A stretch of 64,000 nt of DNA from Planctomycetaceae bacterium (GTDB lineage: Bacteria; Planctomycetota; Planctomycetia; Planctomycetales; Planctomycetaceae): positions 434,001-498,000 of the forward strand of contig JANSXP010000001.1 in NCBI GenBank assembly GCA_024742875.1, in the 5' to 3' direction. Position numbers and translations under genes: made by a program. The notes under the pieces were generated by a model. That model was not told where the DNA came from. It saw only the letters and a program-made list of their open reading frames with translations, and searched no databases. Of this stretch, positions 11,001-29,490 are shown one piece after another (the stretch's first letter is position 1; each line of letters begins with the position of its first letter).

Positions 11001-13186
11001 TGGCTGGCGGGGCCGGCGTAGTCAGCTCCAAAGAAATCCTCCAGCCGGACAAACGTCGAGACGCCTCCCGACGCATCGATGCGGTAGATGGTGCTGTTGC
11101 CGCCGGGCCCGATATCCGCATGACGCTTCTGAAACGCGGCCACAAACTGATCGCCACTCGACGGGTGCACGGCAAGGCCGTTGGTGGCACCCACCTGGGC
11201 AATCGTGGCGATTGTAGTTTTGATGCTGCCATCTGCATTGAACACGACAACCGCCGGTTCGGTGGTGGGATCCAGGCTGCTCTGGCCGCTGTAAATGAAA
11301 CACGTGGTGACAAACAGTGCCTGATCGGCCGGGCGATACACGGCCAGATCGGCGGTGACCGCCGCGCTGCCGGCGGAAACAAATGCAATGCTGCTGAAGG
11401 TGCTGTTGCTGGCCGGCGGCGACAGGGCCGTGGTGACGCTCTGATCGACGTTCAGTCCCGTGAACTCCAGACGCAGAGGGGCCGACGTCACACCAACCAG
11501 CGTGTAATCGCCGCCGGCTGTCGTGACGGCCGTGGCCGCCAAAGCGCCGTTTTCGTCGAAGGCACTCACAGTAATCCCTGCGACACCCAGCTCACTGTTG
11601 TTGATGCCATTGTTGTTCGCATCCAGAAACACGCGCCCGGAAACGTTGCGAGTGGTGGAGTCTGGGGCAATGAGGAACGCCTGCTGCAGATCGTCGTCTT
11701 CGTCTGTCGAGCTATTGGCAGCTACCGAATCGACGTCTGTTTGTGTCAGCGCGGTGACTTCCGGCGTGAGGTTGATGGTGGTTCCCGCTGCGGCAGCATC
11801 GACGGTGCCGGTGATTGAGAGCGTTTCTGACTGTCCACGACCAACCGACACGGCAGTCAGGTCCCAGACGCCGGTGGCGGCCGCAAAGCTGCCGGCACTC
11901 GTACTGCTGGAGACCAGCGACAGGCCAGGCGGCAGCAGTCCATCAATGGTGAGGCCGGTGGCGGCCGTGGTGGCTCCTTCCGGGTTGTTGAAGGCGGTGA
12001 TCTCGTAGGTGACAGTCTGACCGGCAACAAGGGAAGTGCGGTCGAATACAGCGTCGATTTCCACGTCCACAAAGTCGCTGGGCAGCGTGACGCTCACCGC
12101 TGCGATGGTTTGGAAGGTGAGTTGTCGCGTTTGTCCGGGAGTGACGCTTCCGCTCAGAGTCCACAGACTGGTGGACTCATCAAACGCATCTCCGCCAGGC
12201 GGTGTGACGGAACCTGGCACGATTTGCTGCCCGGCCGGAACGGCGACCGATACCACGACACCTGTCGCCGCCGTTGTGGCCTCCGCGCTGTTGTTGGCCG
12301 CATTGACCGTCCATGTCACCACGTCACCTGCCAGTGGCGAAGAGGGGCTGACTGAGGTCGTCAGTTGCAGATCGATGCGTTCCAGGCCCACTGACACCAC
12401 ATCGCCAGGTTGCGCGCTGAGATTGGTTCCCCCTTCGGTCTGCGCGAACGCCAGCAGCGTGACATCACTGCTGAATGTACCCGTGTTGCCTGTGGGATTG
12501 CGGACCGTCGCATCGTAGGTCAGGACGGCGATATTGTTGCCCGTCAGTCCGGTGGACAGCGCATCAAGGGATCCGCAGTGGTCGGCGGCGGCCAGCGTCC
12601 CGTTGGTGGCTCCTGGGTCATCAATTTCAATCCCAGCGGCGAACAGTCCGCTGCCGTCCGACGTCAGCCCCGCCTCCGTCCACGAAAGTCGCGCCCCAGA
12701 GCCTGAGACGACGCGCAGGGAATTGGCGACATAAGCAAGTCCGGCGGGCAGCGTATCCTGAATGGTCACATCAAACGCGCCGCCGACCGTCGACTGATTC
12801 TCCACCACTATGGCCAGGCGGATCGTTTCTCCGGGGCGGGCGTTAATCAGGTTGGCGTTAATTGGCACGGCCGCCGTGCCGCTGCGAACAGCCTCGCTGG
12901 ACAGCGTTCCGACGAATGGCTGATCGGTGCCCGGGGCAGCAAAGGTGACGGATCCCGGTGCCGTGGGCGCATCGAAAACAGCGGCTGACTGACTGGAGCT
13001 GACCACGCCTTTGGTAATCAGCAGATCGGGGGCCCCACCGGTGGCACCGGACAGCAGACAGCGACGTTCAAATCGCTCCACCTGGCGAATTTCGGCCATG
13101 ATGGCCCGCCTCCGCCGAGCAGACGGGCGATGACCGCGCCGCAGCAGCGGTGACAATTGGGCAAGGTACTCCCGGACAGATTTCAT
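5048..13186 (-). CDS. Giant secreted multidomain surface protein (DUF11, SdrD-B, GEVED, FN3-like repeats)
   Basis: A 2,712-residue protein expected outside the cell. The N terminus is very basic and carries VERFERRCLLSG near residue 40, matching the LExRxLLS-type motif seen at the start of many large planctomycete extracellular proteins. Approximate order: DUF11-type repeats (120-490); an SdrD-B/Cna-B domain (GRVFLDANNNG, about 515); a beta-propeller-like region (620-1070); SdrD-B (IGNRVWQDVNANG, 1087); DUF11 (1315-1450); a GEVED domain (ADEDGVRFLTPL, about 1560); three tandem SdrD-B domains with Ca-binding-like DLNGDG loops (1678, 1785, 1898); DUF11 (2010); a Calx-beta-like stretch (2255-2350); and FN3-like modules with repeated WVRA/WVRG strands to the end. 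No PEP-CTERM or LPXTG anchor is visible. ATG 13186 has a GAGGG ribosome-binding site; an internal ATG (MAEIRQVERF) is an alternative. Likely adhesion or cell-surface scaffold. Confidence 0.88.
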   Translation of the reverse strand: MKSVREYLAQLSPLLRRGHRPSARRRRAIMAEIRQVERFERRCLLSGATGGAPDLLITKGVVSSSQSAAVFDAPTAPGSVTFAAPGTDQPFVGTLSSEAVRSGTAAVPINANLINARPGETIRLAIVVENQSTVGGAFDVTIQDTLPAGLAYVANSLRVVSGSGARLSWTEAGLTSDGSGLFAAGIEIDDPGATNGTLAAADHCGSLDALSTGLTGNNIAVLTYDATVRNPTGNTGTFSSDVTLLAFAQTEGGTNLSAQPGDVVSVGLERIDLQLTTSVSPSSPLAGDVVTWTVNAANNSAEATTAATGVVVSVAVPAGQQIVPGSVTPPGGDAFDESTSLWTLSGSVTPGQTRQLTFQTIAAVSVTLPSDFVDVEIDAVFDRTSLVAGQTVTYEITAFNNPEGATTAATGLTIDGLLPPGLSLVSSSTSAGSFAAATGVWDLTAVSVGRGQSETLSITGTVDAAAAGTTINLTPEVTALTQTDVDSVAANSSTDEDDDLQQAFLIAPDSTTRNVSGRVFLDANNNGINNSELGVAGITVSAFDENGALAATAVTTAGGDYTLVGVTSAPLRLEFTGLNVDQSVTTALSPPASNSTFSSIAFVSAGSAAVTADLAVYRPADQALFVTTCFIYSGQSSLDPTTEPAVVVFNADGSIKTTIATIAQVGATNGLAVHPSSGDQFVAAFQKRHADIGPGGNSTIYRIDASGGVSTFVRLEDFFGADYAGPASHDPSNWFTDAPAFGTSGKMALGDVDVSDDGDFLYTINLATRELLQIPIRSGGDDPVDYVAGDSRTIERFAIFGDDLVTPTNGGIATGQLGADPVANIRPFALTVRDGLVYVGMVNSAESTTFTSDLNAYVYAFNPATQTFSTTAAVDFPLGTRSTGGGWQAWTSDWDDLPKFYDAAGDYFAVGRNQPWLTDIEFDTNGDMILGFRDRTGDEVGHMVGDPTGADSDGIGGPDRFFHDTKGDILRLRQAAGGTWTPEAGHTAGDGSEYYAEDEATFDPLAATLHPESAQGALVQVPGAGHIVTTAIDPQSFWAGGVIALDNATGEQVDQLDIYSGSDAADILTFGKNNGLGDLEYVGNLSHEIGNRVWQDVNANGVQDAGEPALAGIDLQLIDISDPAVPVIVGATTTNSAGEYAFNDSNVVYTDGGAAVGLRSLTDYRVQVVTAELQPGGSLFGQVPTLSDQSPVLVPRTRQAVSGTAEFDTDQNTTPDTPRNQRFDLLTTAGLRSNGVRIVITNMTGGFARVDSDQSVIFEFAAGSTAGSFEYQILDERLDSDALGRDDNEDGLVDQVFAEVTTGAAGWSDHSVDLGFRPASADVSLVTTSSQQQAVSGDTIRFQLTVTNSLQADLTASDLIITNRIPSGLTLLPGSVTTTSGSLSGTNVTTWTLGSSLRPGESASLQYLATVDGGLADAVLITAAEVSGLSVPDIDSETGNDNGDRSEDDEDDVVLLVGTLGNSTVTAQAQVVAADQFDFDSVPGNDDQDQSEDDEGRSSYTLSTVTNAFDYGDLPDVYRTTTGSGGPSHRRGSPTFLGQTVDDEADGQPSLTASADGADEDGVRFLTPLIPGSTASVQVTTSTAGFLNAWIDFDADGTLDELQITTIDGTALGTPVAARDLPLTAGVHVLSINVPATAGGQMAARFRYTSDAMGGLRSTGGVWENGEVEDYVLRELGDRVWFDHNGDGVVDAGTEAGLPGLTVILTADLNGDGTPETYTTLTDANGRYRFSGLPAGRYDVSVVPPAAAVATFDVDGGTDSTAAIEFGAGDSSRDDVDFGYQGTGLIGDLVWQDVNANGFRDGSESGFGSVALVLTGDLNGDGVTDITHTTATDANGAYDFGALVSGDYTVTVTPPADTQPTFDADSIATPNVSVLALAAGSVSRTQDFGYRIPPSGPSGRIGDVIWNDANGNGLRDPGESGIAGVTVQLAGDIDGDGTSDVTLSTNTDADGRYEFGALAAGNYTITVVPPASASATFDADGIATLHTTELTLTSDEQNLTIDFGYLVTSTSAVDLAVLKESDAAADAAPMGSEVVYSVRVTNNGPDDAVDAVVTDVLPSAFASATWTASGTSGAVFTTAGSGNLTETVSLPAGGAITWIVTATLEATFSGTVSNTATVSTSQTDSNPDNNQSTDTLTVSPLTLTPETDPQPGAPFQIGARGMSHVSLVPFVVGTVPGTGTINGVTVDIADPQIFMVGFVCVDDRIIAVYDIPETLSGETLYFQAYETTPVPRLSNLVTAVVGSPGLVIAATGNATTITEGSTQDSVAVALSEPPSGSVTVDIQNERPDRVVTDQTSLTFTAANWDTPQVVTLSAVDDGLVNGNERTNVVFKIRAGSDQAFANAFSKTVRVDITDNDVLQTPGLTDSHTSTPEPQPLITWGTVAGADSYDIWVSPSNSVSTPSDDTTVRGTSFTPQQPLSIGRHVVWVRARSDSGDVSSWSAPATIDITTAPTVSVSSLTAQFQMTVTWTPVPGAATYEVWANNLTTGTSKAFHSTTETDLSFTTASLNLGRYSVWVRGVTANGRAGSWSAAQPLSVAAVPQTPGATFDRQSQFTWTSPSGAATWEIYLQQGSSVIRQAGLTTTSFTPGSPLANNTDYRWWVRGFTHGGEAGPWSAAALARIGGRPTITTPGDGQTVSLSPVFTWTAVDGGISYDLFVFQVDTGTLAFRQSVSEPRYAHGTALSAGSYRVWVRALSSTGAFSPWSTLVEFNVA

Positions 13187-15455: not shown

Positions 15456-15528
15456 GGGGGATTAGCTCAGTTGGGAGAGCGTCTGGCTGGCAGCCAGAAG
15501 GTCATCGGTTCAAGTCCGTTATCCTCCA
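15456..15528 (+). tRNA. tRNA-Ala (anticodon GGC)
   Basis: 73 bases that fold as a tRNA: acceptor GGGGGAT with ATCCTCC, T8 A9, D stem GCTC/GAGC, anticodon stem TCTGG/CCAGA with loop CTGGCAG (anticodon GGC), variable loop AGGTC, T loop TTCAAGT, discriminator A, CCA not encoded. The T stem ATCGG/CCGTT has one T-T mismatch at positions 50-64. The 3' part of the gene is the attachment site of an integrative element: the integrase on the opposite strand ends inside it, and its last about 20 bases recur at 23.14 kb. Confidence 0.93.
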
Positions 15529-16801
15529 TCGGAAGCCTTCGCGGTTTCTCGCGATCACTCGCAAAGCCCTGTTTTTCAGGGCTTTTTTCATGCGCGGTCG
15601 GTTCGGCGTGCGGCTCATTTCCGCCATCTTCCGTAACCTGCTGGGACAGAAATGGGACAAAATCGCCAGCCGCTGCTTTCCGGAAGTCCTCTTCCACCGT
15701 CATCCAGTAATGCTCTTTCGCGATTCGCTCCGTATGCCCGCACCACCCGGTCACCACATGGCTGGGGAACTCCCGTTCCAGTTCGGTGGCCCGCGTGGCC
15801 CGCAGGTTCTGCCATCGCTTCGGCCAGACTTCCAGCCCGGCCCGTTTGATGATGCGGCCTAGCTGTGGGTTCACGTTCGTGATCTGTCGGATGTTGGGCA
15901 GCACGTACTCCGATGGCTGGCTGCCCAGCTCGTCCCACAGGTCATTCAGGGCCTGTTTCAATTCCGGGAACAGCGGAACCAGTCGCTTGCCCTTCTGCTT
16001 GTGGTGTTCCGTTTTGGTGGCATGGACGATGAACCGATCGTGCTCCCAATTGATGTCTGACCACCGCAGCTTCTGAATTTCGGACGGAATCCGCAGGGCA
16101 CCCCAGCGAGCGAGCGAGAACACGCAACGCCATTCCGCGTTCGGGCAGGCGTCCAGAACCCGCAGGCTTTCCTCCAGACTGACAAAATACTGCGTGTCTG
16201 GATTGCCTTCGGCGGCCACCTTCAGCGACTGCAAAGGGTTGGTTTCCAGAATGCGATCGGCCACCGCGGCCTGCATCATCTGTTTGGCGAATCCACAGCG
16301 TTTGCGGACCGTTGATTCGGCCAGCCCTTCGGAATCAGTCAGCCACCGTTCAAAGCGTTCTGCATCGCCTTCGGTGATTTCTGCCAGCGGCTTGTCTGCC
16401 CCAAAGAAGTCCAGCAGGTTGCGCTTGGCGTGGCCCCAGACCAGCAGGGTGCTTTTCTTTTGCGATGCCCGGTCTGCCATCCAGCGTTCCAGATGCGGCC
16501 CCAGTACCTTTGGCATTTCTCCCGTCTGCGCCTCCAGCAGGCCAGCGGCTTCCAGCGTTTTGCGGTGGCTGGTCTTCAGGCTTTCAATCCACTTCCGCAG
16601 TGACGGGCTCAATGCGGTTCCGGTGGCCCTGCATTCGATCAGGCATTCGATATTGCCGGCCAGCGAATAGGCTCGCTTGCTGGCTCCGGCCTTACGTTCG
16701 TTCTTCCGCTGGCTGATGCTCAGGCAACGGCTGATGCCATCGGCGGCCACAAAGCGAATACGGAAACGGGTCTTCTTTGGATCGTAGTTTACACTGGCCA
16801 T
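15467..16801 (-). CDS. Tyrosine recombinase (integrase of element 1)
   Basis: 444 residues. It catalyses site-specific integration and excision at tRNA-Ala. SAM-like core-binding domain at about 90-215, catalytic domain at about 225-375. Visible catalytic positions: Arg237 (ALRIPSE), a Lys in TKTEHHKQKGK, Arg334 in QNLRATRAT, His356 (WCGHTE) and nucleophile Tyr365 (EHYWMT). The usual His three residues before the second Arg is Gln331, a variant I associate with planctomycete integrases. The last 15 residues (LEPMTFWLPARRSPN) are encoded by the antisense strand of the tRNA gene, so they exist only in the integrated state; in the circular element the frame would continue into the element's right end. 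A conserved tail of similar sequence reappears at copies B and C. Confidence 0.93.
   Translation of the reverse strand: MASVNYDPKKTRFRIRFVAADGISRCLSISQRKNERKAGASKRAYSLAGNIECLIECRATGTALSPSLRKWIESLKTSHRKTLEAAGLLEAQTGEMPKVLGPHLERWMADRASQKKSTLLVWGHAKRNLLDFFGADKPLAEITEGDAERFERWLTDSEGLAESTVRKRCGFAKQMMQAAVADRILETNPLQSLKVAAEGNPDTQYFVSLEESLRVLDACPNAEWRCVFSLARWGALRIPSEIQKLRWSDINWEHDRFIVHATKTEHHKQKGKRLVPLFPELKQALNDLWDELGSQPSEYVLPNIRQITNVNPQLGRIIKRAGLEVWPKRWQNLRATRATELEREFPSHVVTGWCGHTERIAKEHYWMTVEEDFRKAAAGDFVPFLSQQVTEDGGNEPHAEPTAHEKSPEKQGFASDREKPRRLPMEDNGLEPMTFWLPARRSPN
15514..15641. repeat. Attachment-site repeat copy A (left end of element 1)
   Basis: A 128-base exact direct repeat of 23140-23267. It contains the last 15 bases of the tRNA-Ala gene, its terminator and the antisense 3' coding part of the integrase. 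Its central 79 bases (15525-15603) recur a third time at 30250-30328. Similarity to copy B continues with mismatches further into the integrase gene to about 15715. Confidence 0.92.
15563..15588 (+). terminator. Rho-independent terminator of tRNA-Ala
   Basis: Stem AAAGCCCTG/CAGGGCTTT with a TTTTT loop and six T at the end, 34 bases after the tRNA. Identical copies lie at 23189-23214 and 30288-30313, because the terminator is part of the repeated attachment segment. On the other strand the integrase frame reads through it. Confidence 0.88.
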
Positions 16802-16863
16802 CGGCTGTTCTTTCAGGGGTGCGAATCAAAGGGGGTGTTTCTTATATCGGGCAGGGCAGGCGG

Positions 16864-17361
16864 CTAGAACGGGACGTCATCGGCTTTTGGTGGAACCGCG
16901 GTGAATGCCCCATTCGCGGTGGCGTGTTTGGCTTCTGTTTCCATCGCCACAGGAAAGCAGAGCGTGGCCCAGTCGATACCGGCCAGCTCAGCCTTCAGGC
17001 GGACAATTTCCGCGGCCACTTCGGATGGCTGCTGCCTGTCGACCAGCACAGTGAGACGGCCGTCCAGCCACTGCTGGGCATAGCCTCCCACAGCCCACAG
17101 GTGGTGTTCGGCGATCCATTCGCCAAAGGCCTCCATCTGGTCTCTGATGGCGTCTGCAGCGGCTGCTGCGGTCTGCTTTGCGATAGCCTCCCGGTGTTCG
17201 GGATCGATGGCAGCAAAGGGCAGCAGGGCGTCCGCGTGCTGCTGAATGGCGGCTGCCAGATTAGGCGGACAATCGCCTTCCACTTTGATGGTGTCTGCCG
17301 TTCGCACCAGTCTCAGGTGGCGGGCGTTGATGGCAGAAACAACTTCGGTCAGATCAATCAT
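16864..17361 (-). CDS. Hypothetical element protein with TubC-like N-terminal helix-hairpin
   Basis: 165 residues from ATG 17361 (MIDLTEVVSAINARHLRLV); the frame extends to 17466 but the extra 35 residues are basic and featureless. Residues 1-50 have the pattern of the TubC N-terminal docking-type fold (helix, a short strand pair LRLVRTADTIKVEG, then PPNLAAAIQQHADALLPF), which is frequent in small proteins next to primases of mobile elements. The middle is helical and Ala/Gln-rich, the end is disordered. It lies between the primase and integrase genes and is probably an accessory replication protein. Family assignment is tentative. Confidence 0.6.
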   Translation of the reverse strand: MIDLTEVVSAINARHLRLVRTADTIKVEGDCPPNLAAAIQQHADALLPFAAIDPEHREAIAKQTAAAAADAIRDQMEAFGEWIAEHHLWAVGGYAQQWLDGRLTVLVDRQQPSEVAAEIVRLKAELAGIDWATLCFPVAMETEAKHATANGAFTAVPPKADDVPF

Positions 17362-17512
17362 GTTACGGGCGGACCCCTTTCTTTGGGTTTTTGCGAGTTG
17401 ATTCTTGCGAGTTGTTTCTTCCGTCACGTGCGGAAAGATGCGGCTGCGGGCGGGGCGGTTCCGCATTCAGCAACTCGCTTAAATCAACTCGCAAGAATGC
17501 AAGAAAAGACGA

Positions 17513-19576
17513 CTAGCTGCGGGTTGGTAGCTCAGTGACCAGCTTTGCGGGCGGGAACCACCACCAGCTTTTCCCATCGAATGCGGGCAGGCTGTCGACC
17601 GGTAGTCCCGTTCTTTCGGCGATGGCTTCCGCGCTGTCCGCGGCTGGCTTTTCCTTTTGGATGCCCAGCCCGATGGCTGCGGTCTGCAGCGTGCGGAATG
17701 AGAACGGTTCCAGTTCCACCATTTCCTTTAGCTCGCTGGCTTTGGTGGGTGTGGTCAATTGCTCCAGCAGGAATTGGCGGGCGGAATCCAGTTCTGCCGA
17801 TGGTCGGCCGGAATGGCCATCGCCTTCGGATTGAATGGCGGCCATGGTATCCCGGACCGTGGCGGACGATGCCTCCAGCCAGTCAATGCTTCCGCAGGGT
17901 GCGGTGCTGCCATCGTCCATTCCCACGTCTACAGACTTCAGGCGGAATGCCCAGTTCATCCCCTCCGCATCGTGCGGGGAGTTGTTCAATTTGCCATGCA
18001 AAAGCAGTCTCTGGCTGTCGTCATCGGGATCAGGCAGGCAATGCCAGATAGCTCTGGCCGTCTTATGCAATCCGCTTCCCAGAATGGCGTTATCCGGATT
18101 GTCCAGACTGATGCGACCGCGGCTGTAATGCTCCAGCGTCAATTGGCACAGGCCCAGTTCTTCCGCCATGGTGGCCAGCGGTTGGACGATCACTTTCTGG
18201 CTGGCGCTGTTCCGATGGTCGGTCTGCAGGGCGCAGCTCTGGAACGTATCCCAGATGCAAAGCAGATAGCCACCGTCTGCCTTCAGGTGCTCATAAACGG
18301 CTGGCAGGTGGCGTTCCAGATCGATGTGGTCGGCCTCTTCCGGCTTCTCGCTTTCGATGCCCAGACCATAGACCACCTGCACCATTTCCACGTCTGCACC
18401 ACAGGCCACCAGCCGCGGCTTTAGCGTTGATTCCTTTTCTTCCTCCGCGCTGCAAACCAGCACCTTCCCCCGAGGGCAGGGGGTGCCGTCTGGCCACGGT
18501 GTTCCAGTCGATACCCGAGCGGCAAAGTCGCCTGCCAGCGTGCTCTTTCCCTGTCCCGGTGGTCCGGCCAGAATGTTCACGCCTCCGATTTGCAGGTGGT
18601 TCTTCCACAGCCAGCGGACGGGTTTACTTTTGATTTGCGATAGCGACCGGACCACCAGCTTCTTTTGAGGTACGGCTAGGCTCGGCTGCGTTGTCGTCTG
18701 CGGGGTTGCGGGTTTTGATGGTCCAGACGCAGTGGGCAGGCTGTCCAGTCTTAGCTTCGGCGCGGTCTGCTCTTTCTCCCACAGATAGCGGGCAGGCTCC
18801 AATGCCATAGCTGCGGGCTTAGGCGGCTGGCAGCGGTTGTTCCATCCAATGACCAGCGGCTCCAGTTCGTCCCATTCAGCGATCGGATGGTCAGACAGCC
18901 ACCGTCCCACCAGAACCACCAGCAGGCCATTCCGCAGGCCTTCACCCGCGCCCGGATGGCTTTCCAGAGTATGCCCTTCAGCGTCCGCCACAACGGACAA
19001 CGGCTGTCCGCCTCCCTTTGATCCTTTGGCCCGGCCCGGTTCCCGCAGTAGCTCCAGCAGGTCAGCAGGGCAGGCAGGAAGGCCCTCGAATTCTTCCGGC
19101 TCCAGAATCCACTCATACCGTCCATCCGCTGTTTTGGAGGGCGGGCACAGGCAGAAGCCACCATTCGCCCGGGTATCTATTGATAGCCCACCGATGTGGG
19201 CTTTGGTGACGATGCCCCGGTCATTGCCTGCCGGATATGAGAACCAGAGCTGGGCACCACCAGAGGGCGTCTGATAGCGTGGGGCTTCCAGTTGATCAAC
19301 GGGGAACTCAAAGGCTTCCAGTTCCGCGTATCCGTTACCCTCGCCTTTGCAGTCGATGTCCAGCACCAGCAGACCGCTGCTTTCGCCGGTGGCAATTCCG
19401 ATGTTTGCGGATGGCCATTGCGACCACCACTGCCGTATTTGGTGGCTGTCAGTGGTGGCCAGCTTCGGCCAGCCTTTAATCAAGGGGCGCTTACCAGCAT
19501 TGACCGGGAACACGCGATAGCCATCGGCTGCGTATTGGCTGGCGGCCTCAAATAGTGTTTCTCGTTTGGTATCCAT
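17513..19576 (-). CDS. Bifunctional primase-polymerase / RepA-like AAA ATPase (element replicase)
   Basis: 687 residues. The N-terminal half (about 1-190) is a prim-pol (AEP) domain: PVNAGKRPLIKGW, then the metal-binding LVLDIDCKG (Asp73, Asp75) and the GGFCLCPPS strand. At the position where the family usually has His in GGxH, this protein has Gln109 (GGAQLWF). The C-terminal half is a RecA-like ATPase of the RepA/helicase type: Walker A AGPPGQGKST (Lys344), then VLVCSAEEE, and a probable Walker B LLCIWDTFQS. It should prime and unwind element DNA, supporting autonomous or helper-driven replication. The downstream linker is low in motifs. A separate hairpin upstream isolates it from the preceding small gene. 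Confidence 0.88.
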   Translation of the reverse strand: MDTKRETLFEAASQYAADGYRVFPVNAGKRPLIKGWPKLATTDSHQIRQWWSQWPSANIGIATGESSGLLVLDIDCKGEGNGYAELEAFEFPVDQLEAPRYQTPSGGAQLWFSYPAGNDRGIVTKAHIGGLSIDTRANGGFCLCPPSKTADGRYEWILEPEEFEGLPACPADLLELLREPGRAKGSKGGGQPLSVVADAEGHTLESHPGAGEGLRNGLLVVLVGRWLSDHPIAEWDELEPLVIGWNNRCQPPKPAAMALEPARYLWEKEQTAPKLRLDSLPTASGPSKPATPQTTTQPSLAVPQKKLVVRSLSQIKSKPVRWLWKNHLQIGGVNILAGPPGQGKSTLAGDFAARVSTGTPWPDGTPCPRGKVLVCSAEEEKESTLKPRLVACGADVEMVQVVYGLGIESEKPEEADHIDLERHLPAVYEHLKADGGYLLCIWDTFQSCALQTDHRNSASQKVIVQPLATMAEELGLCQLTLEHYSRGRISLDNPDNAILGSGLHKTARAIWHCLPDPDDDSQRLLLHGKLNNSPHDAEGMNWAFRLKSVDVGMDDGSTAPCGSIDWLEASSATVRDTMAAIQSEGDGHSGRPSAELDSARQFLLEQLTTPTKASELKEMVELEPFSFRTLQTAAIGLGIQKEKPAADSAEAIAERTGLPVDSLPAFDGKSWWWFPPAKLVTELPTRS

Positions 19577-19627
19577 CAGGTAAAATCAGTCCGTTCTACA
19601 GAGGTTGGTAGAGCAAAGGGAAAGAAG

Positions 19628-19660
19628 AAAGGGCCATCCCGGCACAGGGGATGGCCCTTT
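19628..19660 (-). terminator. Hairpin terminator between two element genes
   Basis: A 12-base perfect inverted repeat (AAAGGGCCATCC with GGATGGCCCTTT) and 9-base loop, 11 bases after the stop of the minus-strand gene at 19671. The T-rich stretch TTTCTTCTTT follows on the minus strand. It may attenuate transcription into the replicase gene. Confidence 0.7.
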
Positions 19661-19670
19661 CGTTTTGGCG

Positions 19671-20012
19671 TTACTGCTGCCGCATGAAAGAGCCCACGCG
19701 GGTGCTGCCGCTCTCGGTTTCTTCCACAACGATCAGGCCACGGGTGCCTGCATAGGCCATCAGGTCAATCTGCTCGCCTGCTTCAATGTCTGCGCCCTTC
19801 AGCGACTTAACGAATTTGCACAGGTTGCTTTTGGGGCTCAGCTTCTGACTGACGATGCGGGATGTTTCGGTTCCGGTGTGGTCGCCTTCCAGAACGCGCC
19901 ACTTCAATCGGACGCCCGGTCCATAGTCGTTTTCGAATGCCTCCGCGCCGATGAATTCCGCGGGGTATCCGCCGGCGGGAACGCCGGAATTTGCTTCCAT
20001 GGTGAATTTCAT
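19671..20012 (-). CDS. Small SSB-like / DUF669-like element protein
   Basis: 113 residues with a strong GAGGTAA ribosome-binding site. The beta-rich sequence with PAGGYPAEFIGAE, NDYGPGVRLKWRVLEG and SPKSNLCKFVKSL resembles phage and satellite proteins of the DUF669/single-strand-binding-like type, which typically sit beside replication genes. It lies directly upstream of the primase-polymerase gene, fitting a DNA-replication accessory role. The family call is based on pattern only. Confidence 0.65.
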   Translation of the reverse strand: MKFTMEANSGVPAGGYPAEFIGAEAFENDYGPGVRLKWRVLEGDHTGTETSRIVSQKLSPKSNLCKFVKSLKGADIEAGEQIDLMAYAGTRGLIVVEETESGSTRVGSFMRQQ

Positions 20013-20098
20013 TTGTTGTTACCTCAAGGGTGAAAAGAGCCCGGCCATCAGGCCGGAAGGAAAAGAGAAGCCGCCCAGCGCACTGCCGGGCAATTGGC

Positions 20099-20500
20099 TT
20101 AGCCGAACAGCGCGTTCGTAAAGCTTCGCATTGGCAGGTGCAGGTCCCGCGGCCGTGTCCGCTTCAACTGCTCGCGGGTGGGCTGAATGTAGGCACTACC
20201 CAGACTGCGTTTGAGTTCTTCCAGACGGGCCTCTGCAGCGGGTCTATTGTCGAGCATGTAACGCCGGATGATGCCCGCGTGGTTGCTCTCGCGGATGCTG
20301 GTGCACAGCCCGTGTCGATGGCATAGGCCAGCCAGCACCAGCTCACTCATCGTGTTTGAGACATCGCTGGGAAGCGACTCATCTTCAGCCACGGGCACCA
20401 CCTCATAGGGCAGGTCGATGGTGACTCCCATTCGGCGGCACAGCAGACCGTACAGGGCGGCTGCCTCAAACTGCAGGCGATAGATTGCGTTCCGGCTCAT
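20099..20500 (-). CDS. Hypothetical small element protein
   Basis: 133 residues from ATG 20500, which overlaps the stop of the upstream excisionase gene as ATGA and is preceded by GAGGTGG, so translational coupling is expected. A start five codons earlier is possible but would place that ribosome-binding site inside the gene. Mostly helical and Arg-rich (YRLQFEAAALYGLLCRRMG; RPRDLHLPMRSF). No family recognised. Confidence 0.65.
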   Translation of the reverse strand: MSRNAIYRLQFEAAALYGLLCRRMGVTIDLPYEVVPVAEDESLPSDVSNTMSELVLAGLCHRHGLCTSIRESNHAGIIRRYMLDNRPAAEARLEELKRSLGSAYIQPTREQLKRTRPRDLHLPMRSFTNALFG

Positions 20501-20703
20501 TTGGCCACCTCGCATTCGGTGGCGGTCTGGCTGGCCACAAAGTGCTCCAGCGCAGTCCAGTCATACAAAACGGTCCGGCCAAAGCGAACGCAGGGGATCG
20601 GCCCGCGCGGAACGGTGTTCTCCCACAGCCAGCGTTCAGATTTGCCAAAGAACCCGGTGGCTGTTTCGCGGGTGTTCTTCAGACGTGAATTCGGTGCAGA
20701 CAT
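20497..20703 (-). CDS. Small HTH_17/AlpA-type DNA-binding protein, probable excisionase
   Basis: 68 residues from ATG 20703 (GGGAGC ribosome-binding site). The frame is open to 20793 but the added N terminus is Arg/Cys-rich and unlike the family. The sequence follows the winged-helix excisionase pattern: a helix with ETATGFFGKSERWLWENT, then VPRGPIPCVRFGRTVLYDW, the usual strand-turn-strand wing. Such proteins direct excision or activate integrase promoters in integrative elements. It shares an ATGA overlap with the next gene and lies beside the iteron cluster. Confidence 0.8.
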   Translation of the reverse strand: MSAPNSRLKNTRETATGFFGKSERWLWENTVPRGPIPCVRFGRTVLYDWTALEHFVASQTATECEVAK

Positions 20704-20765
20704 TGTCAGCTCCCAAAGTAGATGGTGGCGGCAAGTGGCATTCACTCGCCTTCTACATAGGGGGC

Positions 20766-20909
20766 GTGTCCGAAATTTGGGGGCGGACGGCAATTTCGGA
20801 CAGCAGGTTTCCGCTGTTTCCGGCTTCCCCTGCAGGCTTTCGGAATCCTGCGGAATTCTATTGGTGTCCGTTTTTCTGCCGGGAATTTCGGACGCTAGTT
20901 TTCGGACAG
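20766..20909. repeat. Iteron-like cluster around the core TTTCGGAC (candidate origin or operator)
   Basis: Four copies of a TTTCGGAC-centred motif: 20766-20779 (inverted, GTGTCCGAAATTTG), 20791-20803 (CAATTTCGGACAG), 20883-20894 (GAATTTCGGACG) and 20898-20909 (GTTTTCGGACAG). Three are direct and one inverted. The last falls in the final codons of the adjacent minus-strand gene. The remainder of the 190-base gap has further partial matches (GCTTTCGGAAT, TGTCCG). This suits replicase or regulator binding sites next to the xis gene. Confidence 0.6.
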
Positions 20910-22322
20910 GCTACAGGCCCTGCATTCCCCGTAGTATTCAATCTCTCCCGCCGTGCATGGCTCGCCGCATTCAGAGCAATGCGGACCGTCATCAGGCTCA
21001 GAAGCGACCGGCTGGGAATCGGCCAGCGCCTTCCCCGCTACTTCCATCAGACCAGAATATGCGTCCGCTAAATTGCCCGTGGCAAGGTCTAGGTGTACCC
21101 GCAGGGCGGTGCCTCCTGCTTCCAGCATCTGCCTGTAGCGACTGTGCCCGGTGCCCCTGCCGTCAGTCTGCTTGAACACCCTGTCAAAAAAGGTGGTTGC
21201 GACTGATCTCGGCTCCTTATCTCTCGTATGCTTTGGCTCTGCTTCGCAAAGCCTCTTGCCCATAACTCGATAAGTAATAGCGGCCTCATTCGTGAACTCA
21301 CCTTTGGAAAAATGCCATTCCTCAAGAATCGCAATTCCCGCTAAGTCCAATGCCTCCAGTCGCTCTTTTTGCGTTACCTCGCGACTCCCCGCCCGCTTCG
21401 GCTTAGGTTTGGGCTCCGGCTGTAAACTTTTGTCCGCCTGTCCAGCGGAAACTTCTGGCGATAGCAGGTCAATCAGGCGCTCCAGTTCTCGCTCTGCTTC
21501 CAGTAGCGACTCTGGCGAATCCCTCACTTCTGATTGAACCCTAAAACACCGCAGGGCTCGCCTCGCGTTGCGCAGTTCCACGTGCAGTGGCTCAAGCCAG
21601 ATCTTCTGGCATAAATCGGATGCTGGATCCAGTGAATCAAGAATGGCAGATAGCCAGCCCCGCAGCTCTGCTTTAGATCGGACCGGTTCTGTCCGGCTTG
21701 TCACTTCCCACCGGCGTGTGGGCAGTTCGCCCGCGTCAAACGCTGCGTGCTTTAGATCAGCACGGATGTCCGCCATAAAGCGGTCGTACAGGTCTTCTGT
21801 ATCTCCCAGCCGCGTGGCTATCAAGGGGTGATAGTCGATGTAATCTCGATCCATCTCTGCCACGTCCTCGATTCGCCTCCTGCAGCGGTACGGAGTGTCT
21901 AGAAGGAAATGGACTTGCCGAGTTAGGTCAAGAAACGCCTCTGCATCGAAGTGCAGGCAGAAGCCTTTCACAAAGCGGCCCGGCCAGATGGAATCCCCAT
22001 CCTGCAAGAAGAAACCGTGGTCCCGGTTGGGTACTCCAGCGTTTATCAGCAACTGCCTGAACTCCAGAAAACTGGATGGAACAGGGAAGCGATAAGCATT
22101 CATCAACTCCCGGTACGTCACCCCCAGCGCAGACTTGCTTGCCATACCCGATTCCAGCCGGGTGCGGGTGTCCTCATAGGTGAACCGCACCCTCTGTAAA
22201 CAGCAGTAGGCGGCCTTCACTTCCAGCGGCCCCAGCGAATCAATGCCCTCGGCTTCAGCTTTCCGGAGGGCGTCCAGACCGGCTTTCACGGTCCCGGCTT
22301 CAATCCATTGCGTATCCGTCAC
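20895..22322 (-). CDS. Unknown 475-residue element protein with C-terminal zinc-ribbon-like motif
   Basis: No family recognised. Residues 1-290 are helical with many Arg/Glu pairs; 295-320 is a charged linker (EPKPKPKRAGS); 320-430 looks like a compact domain (ITYRVMGKRLCEA). The end carries two Cys pairs, CSECGEPC and CRAC, spaced like a small zinc ribbon. It is the first gene of the element in transcription order and the largest without a call, so it is a good candidate for an element-specific function (replication control, packaging interference or defence). Start ATG 22322 is the first in frame. Confidence 0.7.
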   Translation of the reverse strand: MTDTQWIEAGTVKAGLDALRKAEAEGIDSLGPLEVKAAYCCLQRVRFTYEDTRTRLESGMASKSALGVTYRELMNAYRFPVPSSFLEFRQLLINAGVPNRDHGFFLQDGDSIWPGRFVKGFCLHFDAEAFLDLTRQVHFLLDTPYRCRRRIEDVAEMDRDYIDYHPLIATRLGDTEDLYDRFMADIRADLKHAAFDAGELPTRRWEVTSRTEPVRSKAELRGWLSAILDSLDPASDLCQKIWLEPLHVELRNARRALRCFRVQSEVRDSPESLLEAERELERLIDLLSPEVSAGQADKSLQPEPKPKPKRAGSREVTQKERLEALDLAGIAILEEWHFSKGEFTNEAAITYRVMGKRLCEAEPKHTRDKEPRSVATTFFDRVFKQTDGRGTGHSRYRQMLEAGGTALRVHLDLATGNLADAYSGLMEVAGKALADSQPVASEPDDGPHCSECGEPCTAGEIEYYGECRACSLSEN

Positions 22323-22933
22323 GCGCGGTGCATCCCATCACGATGCCACATCGATGAAAAAAAAAGCAGGGAAAGCGGTCGATGATTCCGCGGTTCGGCT
22401 GGCCGGCCTATCCCGTGCTGCTCCCATTGTCCCACAGGCAAAATGGATGGCAATTTCAGATTACCACCTAGGGTGCGGGGATTTGCGAGAATAGAACGGC
22501 CCGCACTACCCCACGGGCAGCGGTGCCATCGGCCTTCAGGAAGGAAGTGGGTTTTGGAATCGTTTGTAGGGACGCCTTTGAGACTAGCCGAATAAGTCCA
22601 GACAGCGCCTCCCCCTCTCCAGCCATATGGTACCTACAGCGGGGGTCCCCTCACCACAGGCGGGGCGGTCACGTATTGCCACGTGTTCCCTGATGTTCCC
22701 GTTCCACCCGGATGCAAGAAGGCCAGTGAGGATGCGACCGGTCAGCATGATGGCAACGCCGGGTGCAGCGACCGTTGCCAGCGTCCAGCTTTAGCGTCTG
22801 CGTGGAATGCGGCTATCCCTGCGCCTGCCTGCTCATTGGATACAGAATGGCCAGCAGACAGCTTGTGGGTCCTCCCAGGGCGATGCTGCTGCGGACGGGG
22901 CGTAGACGGTTGGGCTTTTTTTGTCACGGGATC
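22323..22933. other. Non-coding right end of element 1
   Basis: About 610 bases without a convincing gene. The longer plus-strand frames here run straight into the repeat and share no motif with known proteins. The segment should hold the promoter of the leftward element operon; a run of A (minus-strand T) lies at 22362-22370. An inverted repeat CGGGAT/ATCCCG around 22927-22942 includes the stop codon of the integrase-tail frame. Confidence 0.45.
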
Positions 22934-23355
22934 TCAATCCCGAAGCGGACGGAGGGCAGTAGCGGGCGCGATTGTCAGGCCAGCCCGATCCAGACACCGG
23001 CTCAGTGCCTGCAACTGGTCGACCGTGAATCCCTCCGCTTTCAGCATATCCACCAGCCTCTTCTGGCTGGTTTGGGACGGGAAAGGGACAGAAGGTTTCG
23101 TGCGACCGCTTTCTCCCGAGGAAACCGCACTGTGTTCACGTCCGTTATCCTCCATCGGAAGCCTTCGCGGTTTCTCGCGATCACTCGCAAAGCCCTGTTT
23201 TTCAGGGCTTTTTTCATGCGCGGTCGGTTCGGCGTGCGGCTCATTTCCGCCATCTTCCGTAACCTGCATGGACACAAAATGGACACTTTTGGTTTTGGCG
23301 GCTTTCCGGAAGTCCTCTTCCACCGTCATCCAGTCATGCGCTTTCGTGAATTCAC
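22934..23355 (-). pseudogene. Integrase stub of element 2 fused to the right-end tail of element 1
   Basis: The frame 23329-22934 begins at MTVEEDFRKAA, which corresponds to residues just after the catalytic Tyr of the intact integrase; similarity continues upstream to about TKAHDW and then stops, so the recombinase domain is lost. The shared tail to PMEDNG is encoded by repeat copy B. After it come 68 residues (REHSAVSSGESGR... with KRLVDMLKAEGFTVDQLQAL) encoded by element 1's right end. In an excised circle of element 1 this same stretch would become the C terminus of the intact integrase, giving about 497 residues. Confidence 0.8.
23140..23267. repeat. Attachment-site repeat copy B (junction of elements 1 and 2)
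   Basis: Exact 128-base copy of 15514-15641, with the preceding six bases also matching the tRNA T loop except for one position. It includes the tRNA 3' end, a second copy of the terminator (23189-23214) and the 3' coding part of an integrase. Confidence 0.92.
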
Positions 23356-23514
23356 ACGCACGTCGTACGTCCAGATTCCAAACGCCAGATCAACCTGGAA
23401 AACGACAGGAAGCTTGCTTGGGAGAAGTACCACGACCTCATGGCTGCGAAAGACACTGTCGGGCGAAACGTCGCCACCGACGGCCAGGTTTTCGAATTCT
23501 ACCTTGAGTGGTGC
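23348..23514 (+). pseudogene. Frameshifted N-terminal fragment of a second, unrelated integrase
   Basis: On the plus strand, frame starting at 23380 gives KRQINLENDRKLAWEKYHDL, followed about 20 residues later by VFEFYLEWCQ. This is the N-terminal pattern of a common planctomycete integrase (xQINLGxDKxxAFxRYHxLM, then a DxFLxW motif). The preceding strand TSYVQIPN is in the neighbouring frame (from 23348), so a frameshift near 23375 separates them. Nothing after about 23515 matches. It is too short and broken to function and marks an earlier insertion at this site. Confidence 0.55.
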
Positions 23515-23569
23515 CAAGTTTTACCGACGCGGTATCGGGTGGTTCGCCCGCGAATGCTCTTTGGTTCCT

Positions 23570-26500
23570 TTAGTTTGAAGGGGCGTGCAGTGGCTCTGTT
23601 TTCTCAAGGTCAATGAGAATGACATGACTCATTTCTGCCGCCACAAACCATCGTTTGTCGGGAGAAGTCCGGATGGGGACTGCCGGTGGCTGCCATACTG
23701 CGTCAGGAACAGGCTCCCCCGTCGCGACATTCCAAACCAGCCTTTGCTCTTCGGATGCTGAATAGATTCGCGAACCGTCGGCACTGAACGACACGCTTGT
23801 TACGGTGCCGGTGTGCCCCTTCAGCACTACGGTCTCCTGTTCTCGCGAGGCGTCCCAGATCTTCACACCGCCCGAGCCAGACAGACCTGCGGCCAGACGT
23901 TGCCCATCCGGACCGAACCTGACGGATGAAACACCAATGCCCGGAGAGATTGCCAGGATTTCGCGAGCGGTCGTGGCCTCACACAGGTGAACCATATTGT
24001 CTGTACCGCACACGGCGAACCGCTTTCCGTCCGCCGTGAAACTGATTCCGAAGATCGCACCGCAACTCAGGTACGCGGTCGCGATCTGCTTACCGGAAGC
24101 AACTTTCCAGACGCGGACATCTGGGTCATAACCACCGGACACAAGGAGCTTTCCGTCGGGTGAGAATGCCAACCGCCTGACACGATCGGTGTGGCCCGTA
24201 ATCGTGCGAATTTCCGCGCCCGTGTCCGCGTCCCACAGCTTGACTGTGCCATCAAGGGCTCCGGATGCGAGACACGAACCATCCGGGCTGAATTCCACGC
24301 AGTACACCGCGCCGCGATGGCCGGTGAGCGTCACGATCTCGTCGTTCGTTCGTGTATCCCAGAGTTTGACCGTGCCATCTCTGCTCGATGATGCCAGCGT
24401 CCTGCCGTCGGGGCTGTAGTCGACTCCGCTGACCCAGTGACGGTGCCCCTTCAGGACGGCAGCTTCTTCGCCTGTTTCAGTGTTCCAGATATGGACGGTG
24501 CTGTCGTGCGCTGTGGCGAGTCGTGTGCCTTCCGGATTGAAGTCCACGTCGCCCACCTCACCGTCACGCCCATCCAGCCTTAACTTCACCTCGCCCGTCC
24601 TCGCGTCACGCAGAATCGCAAACTTACGCGAACCGGATGCAAGTTGTGTCCCGTCGGAACTAAAGTCGACGCAGTAGACATGGTGAACGTGCCCGGGAAA
24701 GTTGAGACCGTTGTCACCATGGGTATTCCAGATCCTGACAGTCCCGTCGGAGCTGGCCGAGGCAAGTCGCCTCCCATCCGGACTGAAGGCAACACTCCAA
24801 ACATCACTGGCGTGCCCACTCATTGTCGCCTTCAGCTTGCCTGCCTGAGCATCCCACAGTTTGATTTCCGCCGATCTTCCCGCAGTGACAAACTGTGTTC
24901 CGTCGGGACTGAAAGCGACGCAGTGCGTATGTTGACTGTGGGCGATATCGATTGCGATCGATTCCCACGTCTCGGTGTCCCACAGAGAAAATCTGGCGTA
25001 GCTGGCGATCGCGAGCCGGCTCCCGTCAGGGCTGAAGGCCGGGTGCCGCAGGGCCAGTACATTCGGGTTGAGGCTTGCAATCTGTTCCCCCGTCTGTGAA
25101 TCCCAGATCCTCGCTGTCCTGTCGTCCTCGGCGCAGGAGGCGATTGTCCTGCCGTCAGGACTAAATGCGACTCCCGTGACAGACGCGGAATGCCCGGTCA
25201 TTGTGGTGGCTTCGTCACCCGTGTCTGTGTTCCAGACCTGCACGGTTTTGTCGTGCAGTGCTGCCGCGATTTGATCGCCGGAAGGACTGAAAACAAGATC
25301 GCGGATCGAGTCGCGGCTGCTCATGAAGCGAATGATTTCATGCGACTTCGCGTCCCACACTCGCACCACGTTATCGGCACCGCCTGAGGCTATTCGAGAA
25401 CCATCCGGGCTGACCGCGAGTCCCCGCACCTTGCCTTCGTGGGCTTTGATTGCGGCCAGTTGGTTCCCGGTGGACGAATCCCAGAACCGGATCGTCCCAC
25501 CTTTGCCTGCTGAAACCACTTGCTTTCCATCAGCGAGGAAAGCGACCTTGTACACGTCGGTGGAGTGGCCGTAGCACGTGATGTCGCTGCCCTGAAATCG
25601 CCGGTTGCAATAGTGCCACTCGAAGTTGTCGCGGTATTCGTCCGGCATCTCGTGCAGCAACTGCCGAGCGTCAACGGCCCGGTGGGCATCGAACCTCGCC
25701 ACCGCCAGCTGAAACTTCGCAGCCGCTTCGGCGTCTTTGGCGCGCTGAGCTTCGCTGGATGCAACGCCCTCCGCTTTGACCGCGCGGCGCTCATTCGATT
25801 CGGCTTTGTCCCTGGCCTGCATGGCACGCTGTTCGCTGGCCCACGCTTTCCCGCGTTCCTCGTTCGCCAGTTCCGCTTTTTCGTTCGCGAGTTCCGTCTT
25901 CTCGTTCGCCCGGATGAGCCCGTAAGTCGTTCCCGCGATGCCAGCCAGCAATGCGAAAAGAACTGCGAGCGTCGCGGTAACAAGTCCCCGGTTCCGCCTC
26001 GCGAACTTTCGCAACTGATACCATGTCGACGGTGGTCGCGCAGTGACCGTCTCGCCGGTGAGATAGTTGGACAAATCCTGTCCGAGGTCATTTGCCGTCT
26101 GATATCTGCGATCAGGTTCCTTCGCCAGGGCCTTCATGACGACCCAGTCGAGTTCCCCTCGAAGAAGCTGTTGCAGTCTGGCCGGGTGCAGACGTCGCAG
26201 GTCGCCAACAATTGAAGTTACGTCGTGCGACGAGGAACTCAATCGATTGCTGGGGCGCGGTGGGTCCTGTTCCCGAATGATTTCGAGAACCTTCAGCAAC
26301 GCGTTTCGTGCAACGGTTTCCTCATCAAGTGGGGTGGAACCGGTCAGCAGTTCGTACAACATGACGCCCAGCGAATAGACGTCGGTGCGAGCGTCAACGT
26401 CTTCCTCGGCCAGGCCTTTCAGTTCCGCCTGCTCGGGCGACATGTACTGAACCGTGCCAACGACTTTGCCGAACTCAGTGTGCATCGTGGCATCGGTCAG

Positions 26501-27322
26501 TTGCAACTGGCGCCCGACGGCTTTGGCCAAACCGAAGTCAATGATCTTCGGAACCGGTTCCCCATCGACGACAGTCACCAGGACGTTCGATGGCTTAAGA
26601 TCGCGGTGGGCGACACCTTTCTGATGAGCGTGCTGCACAGCCTTGCAAACCGGCACGAACAACTTCAGCCGCTCGTCCACACTCAGCTTGTTATCGTCGC
26701 AATACTGTGTGATGGGAATTCCATCGACCAGTTCCATAACGAAATAGGGCTGGCCGTCGTTTGTCGCCCCGGCATCCAGCACGCGGGCGATATTCGGATG
26801 GTCCATCAGCGCGAGGGCCCGCTTTTCCGCCTCGAATCGGGCGATGACTTCTTTCGATGTTAACTCGCGCTTGATCTGCTTGAGCGCTACCCGACGCTTC
26901 ACAGGCTGAGTCTGTTCGGCGAGCCACACGACTCCCATGCCGCCTCGACCGAGTTCCCGAATCACATCGAAATTGGCGAGGGTGGGCGGAACGTGGTCAG
27001 GATTAGCGGGCGTCCGAGCGACCCACGTCTGTTTGGCATTGAGATTGAAAACTCTGGCGATGACATCCGGGTGATCGGGGAACCGTGGTGCGTACTCCTC
27101 GAGTCGAGGTTCCTCGCCGCGGCTTACGCGATGTTCGATTTCCATCGCCAGCAATTCCGCGAGCAGCCCTTCCCGGGCGGACTCCGACGCTTCAGCCATG
27201 AATTCCTCGATGCGCGGACTCTGGTCGCTCAGCATTTCCTGATCGAATTGATCACAGAGGCGATCGATTTCGACGAACTGCTGTTCAGACTGTGAGTCGT
27301 ATTCCGGGTCTCGCAGATTCAT
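23570..27322 (-). CDS. Membrane Ser/Thr protein kinase with WD40 repeats
   Basis: 1,250 residues from ATG 27322 (MNLRDPEYDSQS); the frame is open to 27430 but that extension overlaps the sigma gene. Kinase domain at about 115-400: Gly loop LGRGGMGVVWLA, VALKQI, HRDLKPSN, DFGLAK, and the APE equivalent SPEQ. A transmembrane segment (GLVTATLAVLFALLAGIAG) follows near 480, then a coiled-coil-like repeat of ANEKAELANE. From about 590 to 1240 there are roughly 15 WD40 repeats (AFSPDG and DGTVRLWD-type strands), enough for two propellers. Its sigma-factor neighbour upstream makes an ECF/kinase signalling pair, a frequent planctomycete arrangement. The kinase is probably inner-membrane with propellers outside the cytoplasm; the ligand is unknown. 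Confidence 0.93.
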   Translation of the reverse strand: MNLRDPEYDSQSEQQFVEIDRLCDQFDQEMLSDQSPRIEEFMAEASESAREGLLAELLAMEIEHRVSRGEEPRLEEYAPRFPDHPDVIARVFNLNAKQTWVARTPANPDHVPPTLANFDVIRELGRGGMGVVWLAEQTQPVKRRVALKQIKRELTSKEVIARFEAEKRALALMDHPNIARVLDAGATNDGQPYFVMELVDGIPITQYCDDNKLSVDERLKLFVPVCKAVQHAHQKGVAHRDLKPSNVLVTVVDGEPVPKIIDFGLAKAVGRQLQLTDATMHTEFGKVVGTVQYMSPEQAELKGLAEEDVDARTDVYSLGVMLYELLTGSTPLDEETVARNALLKVLEIIREQDPPRPSNRLSSSSHDVTSIVGDLRRLHPARLQQLLRGELDWVVMKALAKEPDRRYQTANDLGQDLSNYLTGETVTARPPSTWYQLRKFARRNRGLVTATLAVLFALLAGIAGTTYGLIRANEKTELANEKAELANEERGKAWASEQRAMQARDKAESNERRAVKAEGVASSEAQRAKDAEAAAKFQLAVARFDAHRAVDARQLLHEMPDEYRDNFEWHYCNRRFQGSDITCYGHSTDVYKVAFLADGKQVVSAGKGGTIRFWDSSTGNQLAAIKAHEGKVRGLAVSPDGSRIASGGADNVVRVWDAKSHEIIRFMSSRDSIRDLVFSPSGDQIAAALHDKTVQVWNTDTGDEATTMTGHSASVTGVAFSPDGRTIASCAEDDRTARIWDSQTGEQIASLNPNVLALRHPAFSPDGSRLAIASYARFSLWDTETWESIAIDIAHSQHTHCVAFSPDGTQFVTAGRSAEIKLWDAQAGKLKATMSGHASDVWSVAFSPDGRRLASASSDGTVRIWNTHGDNGLNFPGHVHHVYCVDFSSDGTQLASGSRKFAILRDARTGEVKLRLDGRDGEVGDVDFNPEGTRLATAHDSTVHIWNTETGEEAAVLKGHRHWVSGVDYSPDGRTLASSSRDGTVKLWDTRTNDEIVTLTGHRGAVYCVEFSPDGSCLASGALDGTVKLWDADTGAEIRTITGHTDRVRRLAFSPDGKLLVSGGYDPDVRVWKVASGKQIATAYLSCGAIFGISFTADGKRFAVCGTDNMVHLCEATTAREILAISPGIGVSSVRFGPDGQRLAAGLSGSGGVKIWDASREQETVVLKGHTGTVTSVSFSADGSRIYSASEEQRLVWNVATGEPVPDAVWQPPAVPIRTSPDKRWFVAAEMSHVILIDLEKTEPLHAPSN

Positions 27323-27396
27323 AGGTTTTGCACGGCGTTGAGTTGTTCTACAGCCAGATGTCCAAAACGCAGCAAACCCGGACAGGCACTCGCTGC

Positions 27397-27990
27397 CTAC
27401 TCCCCGTCGTGCAGACCCGCGTCGACCCAAATCCGTCGAATCGCTTCCAGTTTCCGACGAACGGTTCGCACGGTGCAGTCCATTTCGCTGGCGACATCCC
27501 CATTCATGGCGCCCCGGAATTTCAGAAGTACAATTTTTTTCAGGGTTTCATCGGGAAGGGCATCCAGCAGCTGCGAACAGCTCTCCGTGATTTCTGCCTG
27601 AGTATCCGGAGTCTGGTGATCGCCGCCAACCTCCTGCAGCCCGGCTTCTCCAAACCCAGACTCACCGCGCACGGCGCCGCCCCCTCGTTTCTGACGATTC
27701 AGGTATCGCCGTTGAGCAGAGATCTTGCGAGACGTGATGACCGCCAGCAATCCCCACAGAGCGTCGCGATTTTTCGCTTCCAGCCGCCCGTCAGCGAGAC
27801 CGCGACAAAGACTGTGGAAGGCGCTGTTGGCGGCATCGTTCTCGTCGTAGCTGCGGCGCGTTTGCCCGTCGAGCTTTTGACGTGCAAATTCGTGAAGCCG
27901 AACAGAGACGTGTCGCCACAGTTCATCGGCCGCTGCGGCATCCGCATCTGATAGCTGATCGATCCAGCCTGTAACTGATCTGTTTTCCAT
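27397..27990 (-). CDS. ECF-type RNA polymerase sigma factor
   Basis: 197 residues from ATG 27990 (MENRSVTGWIDQLSDADAAAADELW); the frame is open for 85 more codons but those lack sigma-like features. Region 2 (VRLHEFARQKL and ANSAFHSLCRGL) and region 4 (LLDALPDETLKKIVLLKF then DVASEMDCTVRTVRRKLEAI) fit the planctomycete ECF group. Its stop lies 74 bases before the kinase start, so the two are very likely co-transcribed; phosphorylation by the kinase is a plausible control of sigma activity, as proposed for other planctomycete ECF/kinase pairs. Confidence 0.9.
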   Translation of the reverse strand: MENRSVTGWIDQLSDADAAAADELWRHVSVRLHEFARQKLDGQTRRSYDENDAANSAFHSLCRGLADGRLEAKNRDALWGLLAVITSRKISAQRRYLNRQKRGGGAVRGESGFGEAGLQEVGGDHQTPDTQAEITESCSQLLDALPDETLKKIVLLKFRGAMNGDVASEMDCTVRTVRRKLEAIRRIWVDAGLHDGE

Positions 27991-28338
27991 AGTCGTAGGT
28001 GCTCGCCGAGCCAATCCTCTCAGGCATTCCGGAGCTCTGCCAGCAGTTAGAGAGAATTCCCGACGGAAACCCGGATTTTGATTCGCAGAACGCTGTGTCG
28101 GCTCAATTCCACTCGCAGGCAGGTGTGCTGAATAAAGCCCCTGGTGATGTACCGAAGCAGCCTTCACCACGCATGGGCCAAACGAACTCACCGAGCTCCC
28201 ATCAACTGCGACAAATTTTGGAAAACCCTGGCGGACTGTGTCCACCCTGAAATGAATTTGAACATCAGGAACCTGGAGCAGGCAGGCTTAACGTAACGAC
28301 CTGCCAAACGCCGCACGCGGCACCATCAATCGTAAAGA
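27991..28338. other. Intergenic region between divergent ECF and PLAT genes
   Basis: 348 bases holding the two divergent promoters. Near the PLAT gene there is an inverted repeat (GGCAGG at 28281-28286 with CCTGCC at 28300-28305) and a second one (GCCGC/GCGGC at 28310-28321). No gene-like frame was accepted. Confidence 0.45.
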
Positions 28339-29475: not shown

Positions 29476-29490
29476 CATACATGGAGCAAC

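Follow-up and report, generated by a model that had tools for sequence, protein, structure and literature searches.

The 64-kb window, which is the whole stretch of planctomycete DNA analysed here, contains a genuine integrative element in a tRNA-Ala(GGC) gene, comprising att repeats, a tyrosine integrase, a primase-polymerase/helicase and an AlpA-like protein, besides four proteins that are orphans or weakly matched (Table 1). A direct repeat, 15508-15723 and 23134-23349, is identical at 196 of 216 positions, thus the element spans 15508-23133 (7,626 bp). An earlier annotation made from the letters alone, the sequence-only reading, had placed a compact island at 15467-23139 beside a tRNA-Ala; island and tRNA are real, but its ends had to be corrected by the direct repeat, which that reading did not mention. 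The integrase (PF00589 E 2.5e-11, PF13102 E 1.3e-8) and the primase-polymerase/helicase it had named were both confirmed by profile matches. Capsid or conjugation families were not matched by any element protein in Pfam, PHROGs, PADLOC and NCBIfam, as had been stated, and the description as an integrative replicon fits an integrative element with replication genes and without matched capsid or conjugation genes.

Table 1. Features of the element and its surroundings, in coordinates of the window
Feature	Position	Strand	Basis
tRNA-Ala(GGC), integration target	15456-15528	+	ARAGORN
Tyrosine integrase, integrated form, 444 aa, stop within the tRNA (antisense)	15467-16801	-	PF00589, PF13102
attL core, last 21 nt of tRNA-Ala(GGC)	15508-15528		repeat
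Terminator-like hairpin with T run, directly 3' of the tRNA, inside the int frame	15563-15588	+	
Candidate right arm site, 7-mer TGGGACA in tandem with period 11, +135 from core start, in int	15642-15659	+	repeat search
200-aa protein, function unknown	16864-17466	-	no confident family
Primase-polymerase/AAA helicase, 687 aa	17513-19576	-	PF09250 E 4.3e-36, PF13481 E 2.8e-24
113-aa protein, possibly replication-associated	19671-20012	-	sub-threshold NCBIfam match
138-aa protein, function unknown (133 aa from second ATG)	20099-20515	-	no family
AlpA/excisionase-like 98-aa protein	20497-20793	-	similarity to sibling-element proteins
475-aa near-orphan, Cys-rich C-terminus	20895-22322	-	sequence, phylum search
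Predicted Int C-terminal tail in the circular form, about 65 aa and stop	22934-23131	-	open joined frame; no profile match
Candidate left arm site, GGGAC-N6-GGGAC, -60 from core start, in tail; no exact tandem 7-mer	23073-23090	+	repeat search
attR core, copy of tRNA 3' end, 20/21 identical	23134-23154	+	repeat
3' remnant of a second related integrase, from an earlier insertion into this tRNA; in-frame fusion to tail	23155-23349	-	ORF 22934-23329
3' remnant of a third integrase, 82/83 identical	30250-30332	-	sequence comparison

The smaller genes followed the sequence-only reading in part. Its AlpA/excisionase had no profile match of its own, but shared 75 % identity over 57 aa with a protein of the sibling element L100 and 44-49 % identity with proteins near other integrases; among these relatives, HTH_17 was matched in L107 (7.9e-9) and in L112 (4e-5, below the Pfam cut-off). 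The proposed SSB-like gene encodes the 113-aa protein, for which only a sub-threshold match to an NCBIfam phage replication initiation family was obtained (E 0.0015, 18.1 bits, cut-off 75). Its 133-residue protein was recovered as an internal start of the 138-aa ORF, and a profile search with it matched no family. The 475-aa protein, to which a zinc-ribbon end had been ascribed, has a cysteine-rich C-terminus. This near-orphan had one weak match (E 5e-5) among 391 other genomes and none in pattern-based scans of the genome and viral contigs; profile searches gave nothing usable and no informative family, and single-sequence folding yielded an uninterpretable model (pLDDT 41). It had been regarded as the most distinctive gene of the element, a place that we assign to the integrase/attP arrangement. 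The sibling element L100 (1-6811, G394) carries an integrase of the same type (61 %) besides its AlpA-like protein; its replication protein is an unrelated primase-like protein of 843 aa, thus the replication module appears exchangeable. At 17377-17508, at the start of the 200-aa gene and before the end of the primase gene, a 38-nt inverted repeat (79 %) was observed together with several copies of GCGAGTTG, possibly iterons or a replication origin.

The tRNA-Ala gene was probably used more than once, since the 3' end of a second integrase lies right of attR and that of a third further downstream. The second remnant is fused to the tail in a 131-aa ORF, whose Arg_repressor match (E 0.004) was below the cut-off and was set aside. 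The DNA between the two remnants, at 23350-30249, contains a 1286-aa ORF for a Ser/Thr kinase with WD40 repeats as well as further genes, possibly the cargo of an older insertion. A syntenic empty site was not found in a non-exhaustive search with two flank proteins in seven congeners: the left flank protein was matched in one of the seven, at 36 %, the right one in all seven as a many-copy family, and the congener tRNA-Ala loci examined lacked the left- and right-flank genes of the window. The genome of the window holds a second related integrase, broken by a stop codon and adjoining a tRNA-Arg (L165, G000:C35, 11797-12987). In another genome (L153, G216, 9915-11391) a second integrase begins directly past the attR of a first element, and two elements seem to stand in tandem at one tRNA-Arg.

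The integrated int gene stops at tRNA position 14 on the antisense strand. With the cores joined as in an excised circle, its frame stays open for about 65 more residues, up to 22934. As the int frame crosses attP, integration would exchange the C-terminal tail of the enzyme for antisense residues encoded by the tRNA, and the tail sequence would stay behind at attR.

Relatives of this integrase were detected in 129 of 392 genomes of the phylum, its own genome included (E 1e-3). An antisense tRNA was located at the 3' end of 55 of the 71 integrase ORFs read in detail, and 48 ORFs stop inside it. A second set from GTDB contigs, the best 80 loci of 587 relatives and thus biased towards the query, presented an antisense tRNA overlap in 70 of 81 closed integrase ORFs. 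Among the target tRNAs are those for Val, Glu, Leu, Met, Phe, Ile, Asn, Gln, Lys, Ala, Ser, Tyr and Arg. In the first set, whose contigs are often short, 24 of 55 loci had an att repeat; in the second set 10 of 53 loci had one, two of these being duplicates of the first; the combined sets, with duplicates removed, provided 32 elements. The layout of a putative attP inside int recurs across related elements of the phylum.

The displaced tails were searched with a leave-one-out profile built from the tails of the other elements, some of which are close relatives of one another. In 22 of the 32 elements the profile matched at attR, on the int strand, as the best match of the six-frame translated locus; matches of at least 15 bits elsewhere in the locus were absent from all 32. 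Ten elements, the window included, had no recognised tail. Open tails of 51-74 residues with weak or absent similarity were present in the window and in L116, L157, L173, L268 and L269, while L114, L135, L141 and L166 combined att repeats of E 1e-4 to 0.01 with tails of 1-21 residues. For the tail of the window itself, scanning of 10001-35000 gave no profile match (E 0.05 as a single test), its genome had no match in the tail-profile search, and a homology search in 20 near genomes returned its own copy and one match of E 0.038 in G408. The profile search over genomes matched 104 of 382, many of the matches covering the hairpin half only and most of them unchecked. Seven tails were first found by profile at a distance of 17-70 kb from an integrase. 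Six of them adjoin a repeat of the int-side core (L142 does not), and a simple join restores the frame in five of these six, the exception being L161 with a gapped repeat; one such element measures 46.8 kb and resides in a tRNA-Ala(CGC). In L388 (G257:C102:29000-39955) a 5-kb stretch holds two tail-profile matches and an integrase fragment, which may be left from several insertions.

Short repeats resembling arm sites flank the core on both sides within the int frame. The motif GGGAC-N6-GGGAC occurs exactly twice in the 64 kb of the window, at 15643 (+136) and 23074 (-60); 0.25 occurrences were expected, and two or more were present in 3 of 100 shuffled sequences. Across the elements, tandem half-sites with a period of 11-12 are situated at about -62 to -40 in the tail, at about +135 and often also at +158 in the int linker. 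Direct arm repeats at E 0.01 or better were detected in 23 of 28 elements (L114, L135, L141 and L166 were excluded after the tails had been seen, because of their weak att repeats and short tails, and some elements that were kept, e.g., L158 with E 1e-4, have att repeats no stronger), in 23 of 23 at these offsets and never inverted; shuffled controls gave any match in 8 of 280. The window, whose left arm is short, is one of the five elements in which BLAST detected no arm repeat. In the tRNA-Ala group all seven copies have a period-11 tandem 7-mer at +135, the offset of L102 having been counted by hand as its contig begins inside the core. The 7-mers differ between elements, as would be expected if site and enzyme change in concert. 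Terminator-like hairpins within 170 nt after the tRNA were counted in 35 of 123 loci, among them about five that inspection by eye identified as arm repeats, with at least one locus entered twice (L164 and L267), versus 1.0 in shuffled sequences, two on the other strand and one in a control region.

Integrases that keep the tail in the same ORF were encountered in viral contigs of IMG/VR (7 of 81 closed integrase ORFs, about five of them distinct). None of these seven overlaps a tRNA, an overlap present in 5 of all 81, and the 69 ORFs with neither recognised tail nor tRNA overlap are probably other lineages. Among the integrases on GTDB contigs the sole tail-profile match (L266) was a linker repeat, not a tail. 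Seven unsplit ORFs were examined, five found by profile together with L323 and L348, whose tails were judged by eye: arm-type direct repeats flank the expected place in all seven, with a T-arm-like short motif between them in five. Ten ORFs from three of the viral contigs belonged to methyltransferase, protease and unknown families, and no structural gene was among them. Isolated phages and plasmids did not contain a relative of the intact viral Int at 80 % coverage (50,697 phage and 72,556 plasmid records); nine phages and one plasmid had matches, the best with 29 % identity over 46 % of the length.

AlphaFold modelling of the unsplit Int L315 from a 20-row alignment gave a confident body, a linker at residues 372-460 whose pLDDT stays under 50, and a tail of two helices, for which block mean pLDDT values were 77-93 over residues 461-490. 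Thus the viral relative is predicted to have a body like that of lambda Int, followed by a disordered linker and a tail folded into two helices. Such a linker would tolerate DNA signals within its coding sequence. The top Foldseek match of the body was lambda integrase (1z1b, E 8.7e-11); the repeats at fixed offsets on both sides of the core are candidate arm sites at sequence level. In lambda the core is flanked by arm sites; attP lies outside int, and a long C-terminal linker with a hairpin is absent from Int.

The shared layout across elements of the phylum suggests a built-in switch. We consider it probable that the element keeps its attP inside its own integrase gene, where a candidate arm flanks the core on either side and the target tRNA's terminator lies on the int side, and that recombination acts as a self-limiting switch. 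The excised circle would make full-length Int, which would bind core and arms and integrate at the 3' end of the tRNA. Recombination itself would then carry the tail off to the opposite end of the element and leave an Int ending in tRNA-antisense residues. Most likely, the loss of the tail would turn the integration form into a weaker or excision-biased form, and insertion would thereby limit itself. Excision, probably with the AlpA-like protein, would restore the full int gene.

Less likely, the split is a by-product of the packing of core and arms against int; the tail would be a mere end of the frame without a role in recombination, and its conserved GAESGA-type residues would only mirror the arm DNA. 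The arm repeats do coincide with the GAESGA-coding stretch, and the tails vary in length and sequence, several beyond recognition. However, the tail beyond the arm is conserved in distant elements (D-P-D-L...W-P-x-L...I-R-A-G-I) and predicted as a confident hairpin. The pN/pS ratios of the tails, 0.63-0.97 in nine pairs, several of them near 1, and 1.82 in one, give weak evidence for selection at the protein level, and for this reason the by-product retains some credit. It is improbable that the tail serves the free-form enzyme as a tag for stability or regulation instead of being recombination machinery. Mycobacteriophage BPs sets a precedent, as its attP is reported to lie in the repressor gene, the longer viral form to be degraded via a C-terminal tag, and its Int to carry a C-terminal proteolysis signal as well (PMC4557955); however, the predicted folded hairpin does not resemble an ssrA-like tag, and the tails vary in their last residues from element to element. 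Highly improbable, and dropped for want of any satellite-specific family, is the proposal of the sequence-only reading that the island is a PICI-like phage satellite with the 475-aa protein as packaging or interference factor: it is compact, has integration and replication genes of its own and an excisionase by similarity only, and gave no capsid or conjugation matches, but terminase, packaging, capsid-size or capsid-remodelling and helper-interference families went unmatched (the 475-aa protein and three or four small proteins being without family), no helper was identified, the 475-aa protein lacks informative relatives or a model, and the same integrase family serves elements of about 4.6 to 47 kb. 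Membership in a larger known family, named beforehand as an argument against the satellite, applies in part, namely to the integrase with its large planctomycete family.

The self-limiting switch extends a known principle, as attP inside int has been described for Mx8 and SSV (PMC4383910, PMC8371274). For the phages Mx8 and Mx9, a review locates attP within the int coding sequence and states that integration gives int a new 3' end, which in Mx8 modified the specificity without killing the enzyme (PMC6070905). The planctomycete elements resemble Mx8, compared here by its description, in the position of attP inside int and in a C-terminus that integration changes. SSV-type suicidal integrases also carry the att site in the integrase gene and are split by integration; a review calls them exclusively archaeal (PMC8371274). 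Integration of SSV detaches the catalytic part from the N-terminal one, whereas in the planctomycete Int the catalytic domain stays whole and the C-terminal tail alone is removed; the SSV type is ruled out by the integrated int, in which a single ORF still holds PF00589 and PF13102. Integration-dependent immunity of BPs is similar in that recombination at an attP within a gene shortens the C-terminus of the product, although the gene concerned is the repressor and not int (PMC4557955). An open-licence literature search found no paper on an attP-in-int arrangement in planctomycetes. Unlike Mx8, described for single phages, the arrangement reported here spans a phylum, and this breadth, the conserved and detachable hairpin at attR, and the arm-like repeats on both sides together with the tRNA terminator in the int frame are what differs from the known Mx8/SSV cases.

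Tentatively, and with somewhat less confidence than in the switch at this locus, we propose a phylum-wide class of self-editing integrases: integration would remove the folded tail that it needs and so switch off its own integration form, excision would rebuild it, and the int frame would hold a complete attP with core, both arms and the host tRNA terminator. Both enzyme forms can be made and compared, thus the switch is directly testable. If it holds, a gene rearrangement, and not only a separate directionality factor, would determine the direction of integration and its stability in many mobile elements of one phylum, and the many planctomycete integrases that seem to end in tRNA-derived residues would be explained. 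The tail at attR would offer a way to locate the far ends of islands, and the compact int/attP modules could serve a phylum with few genetic tools.
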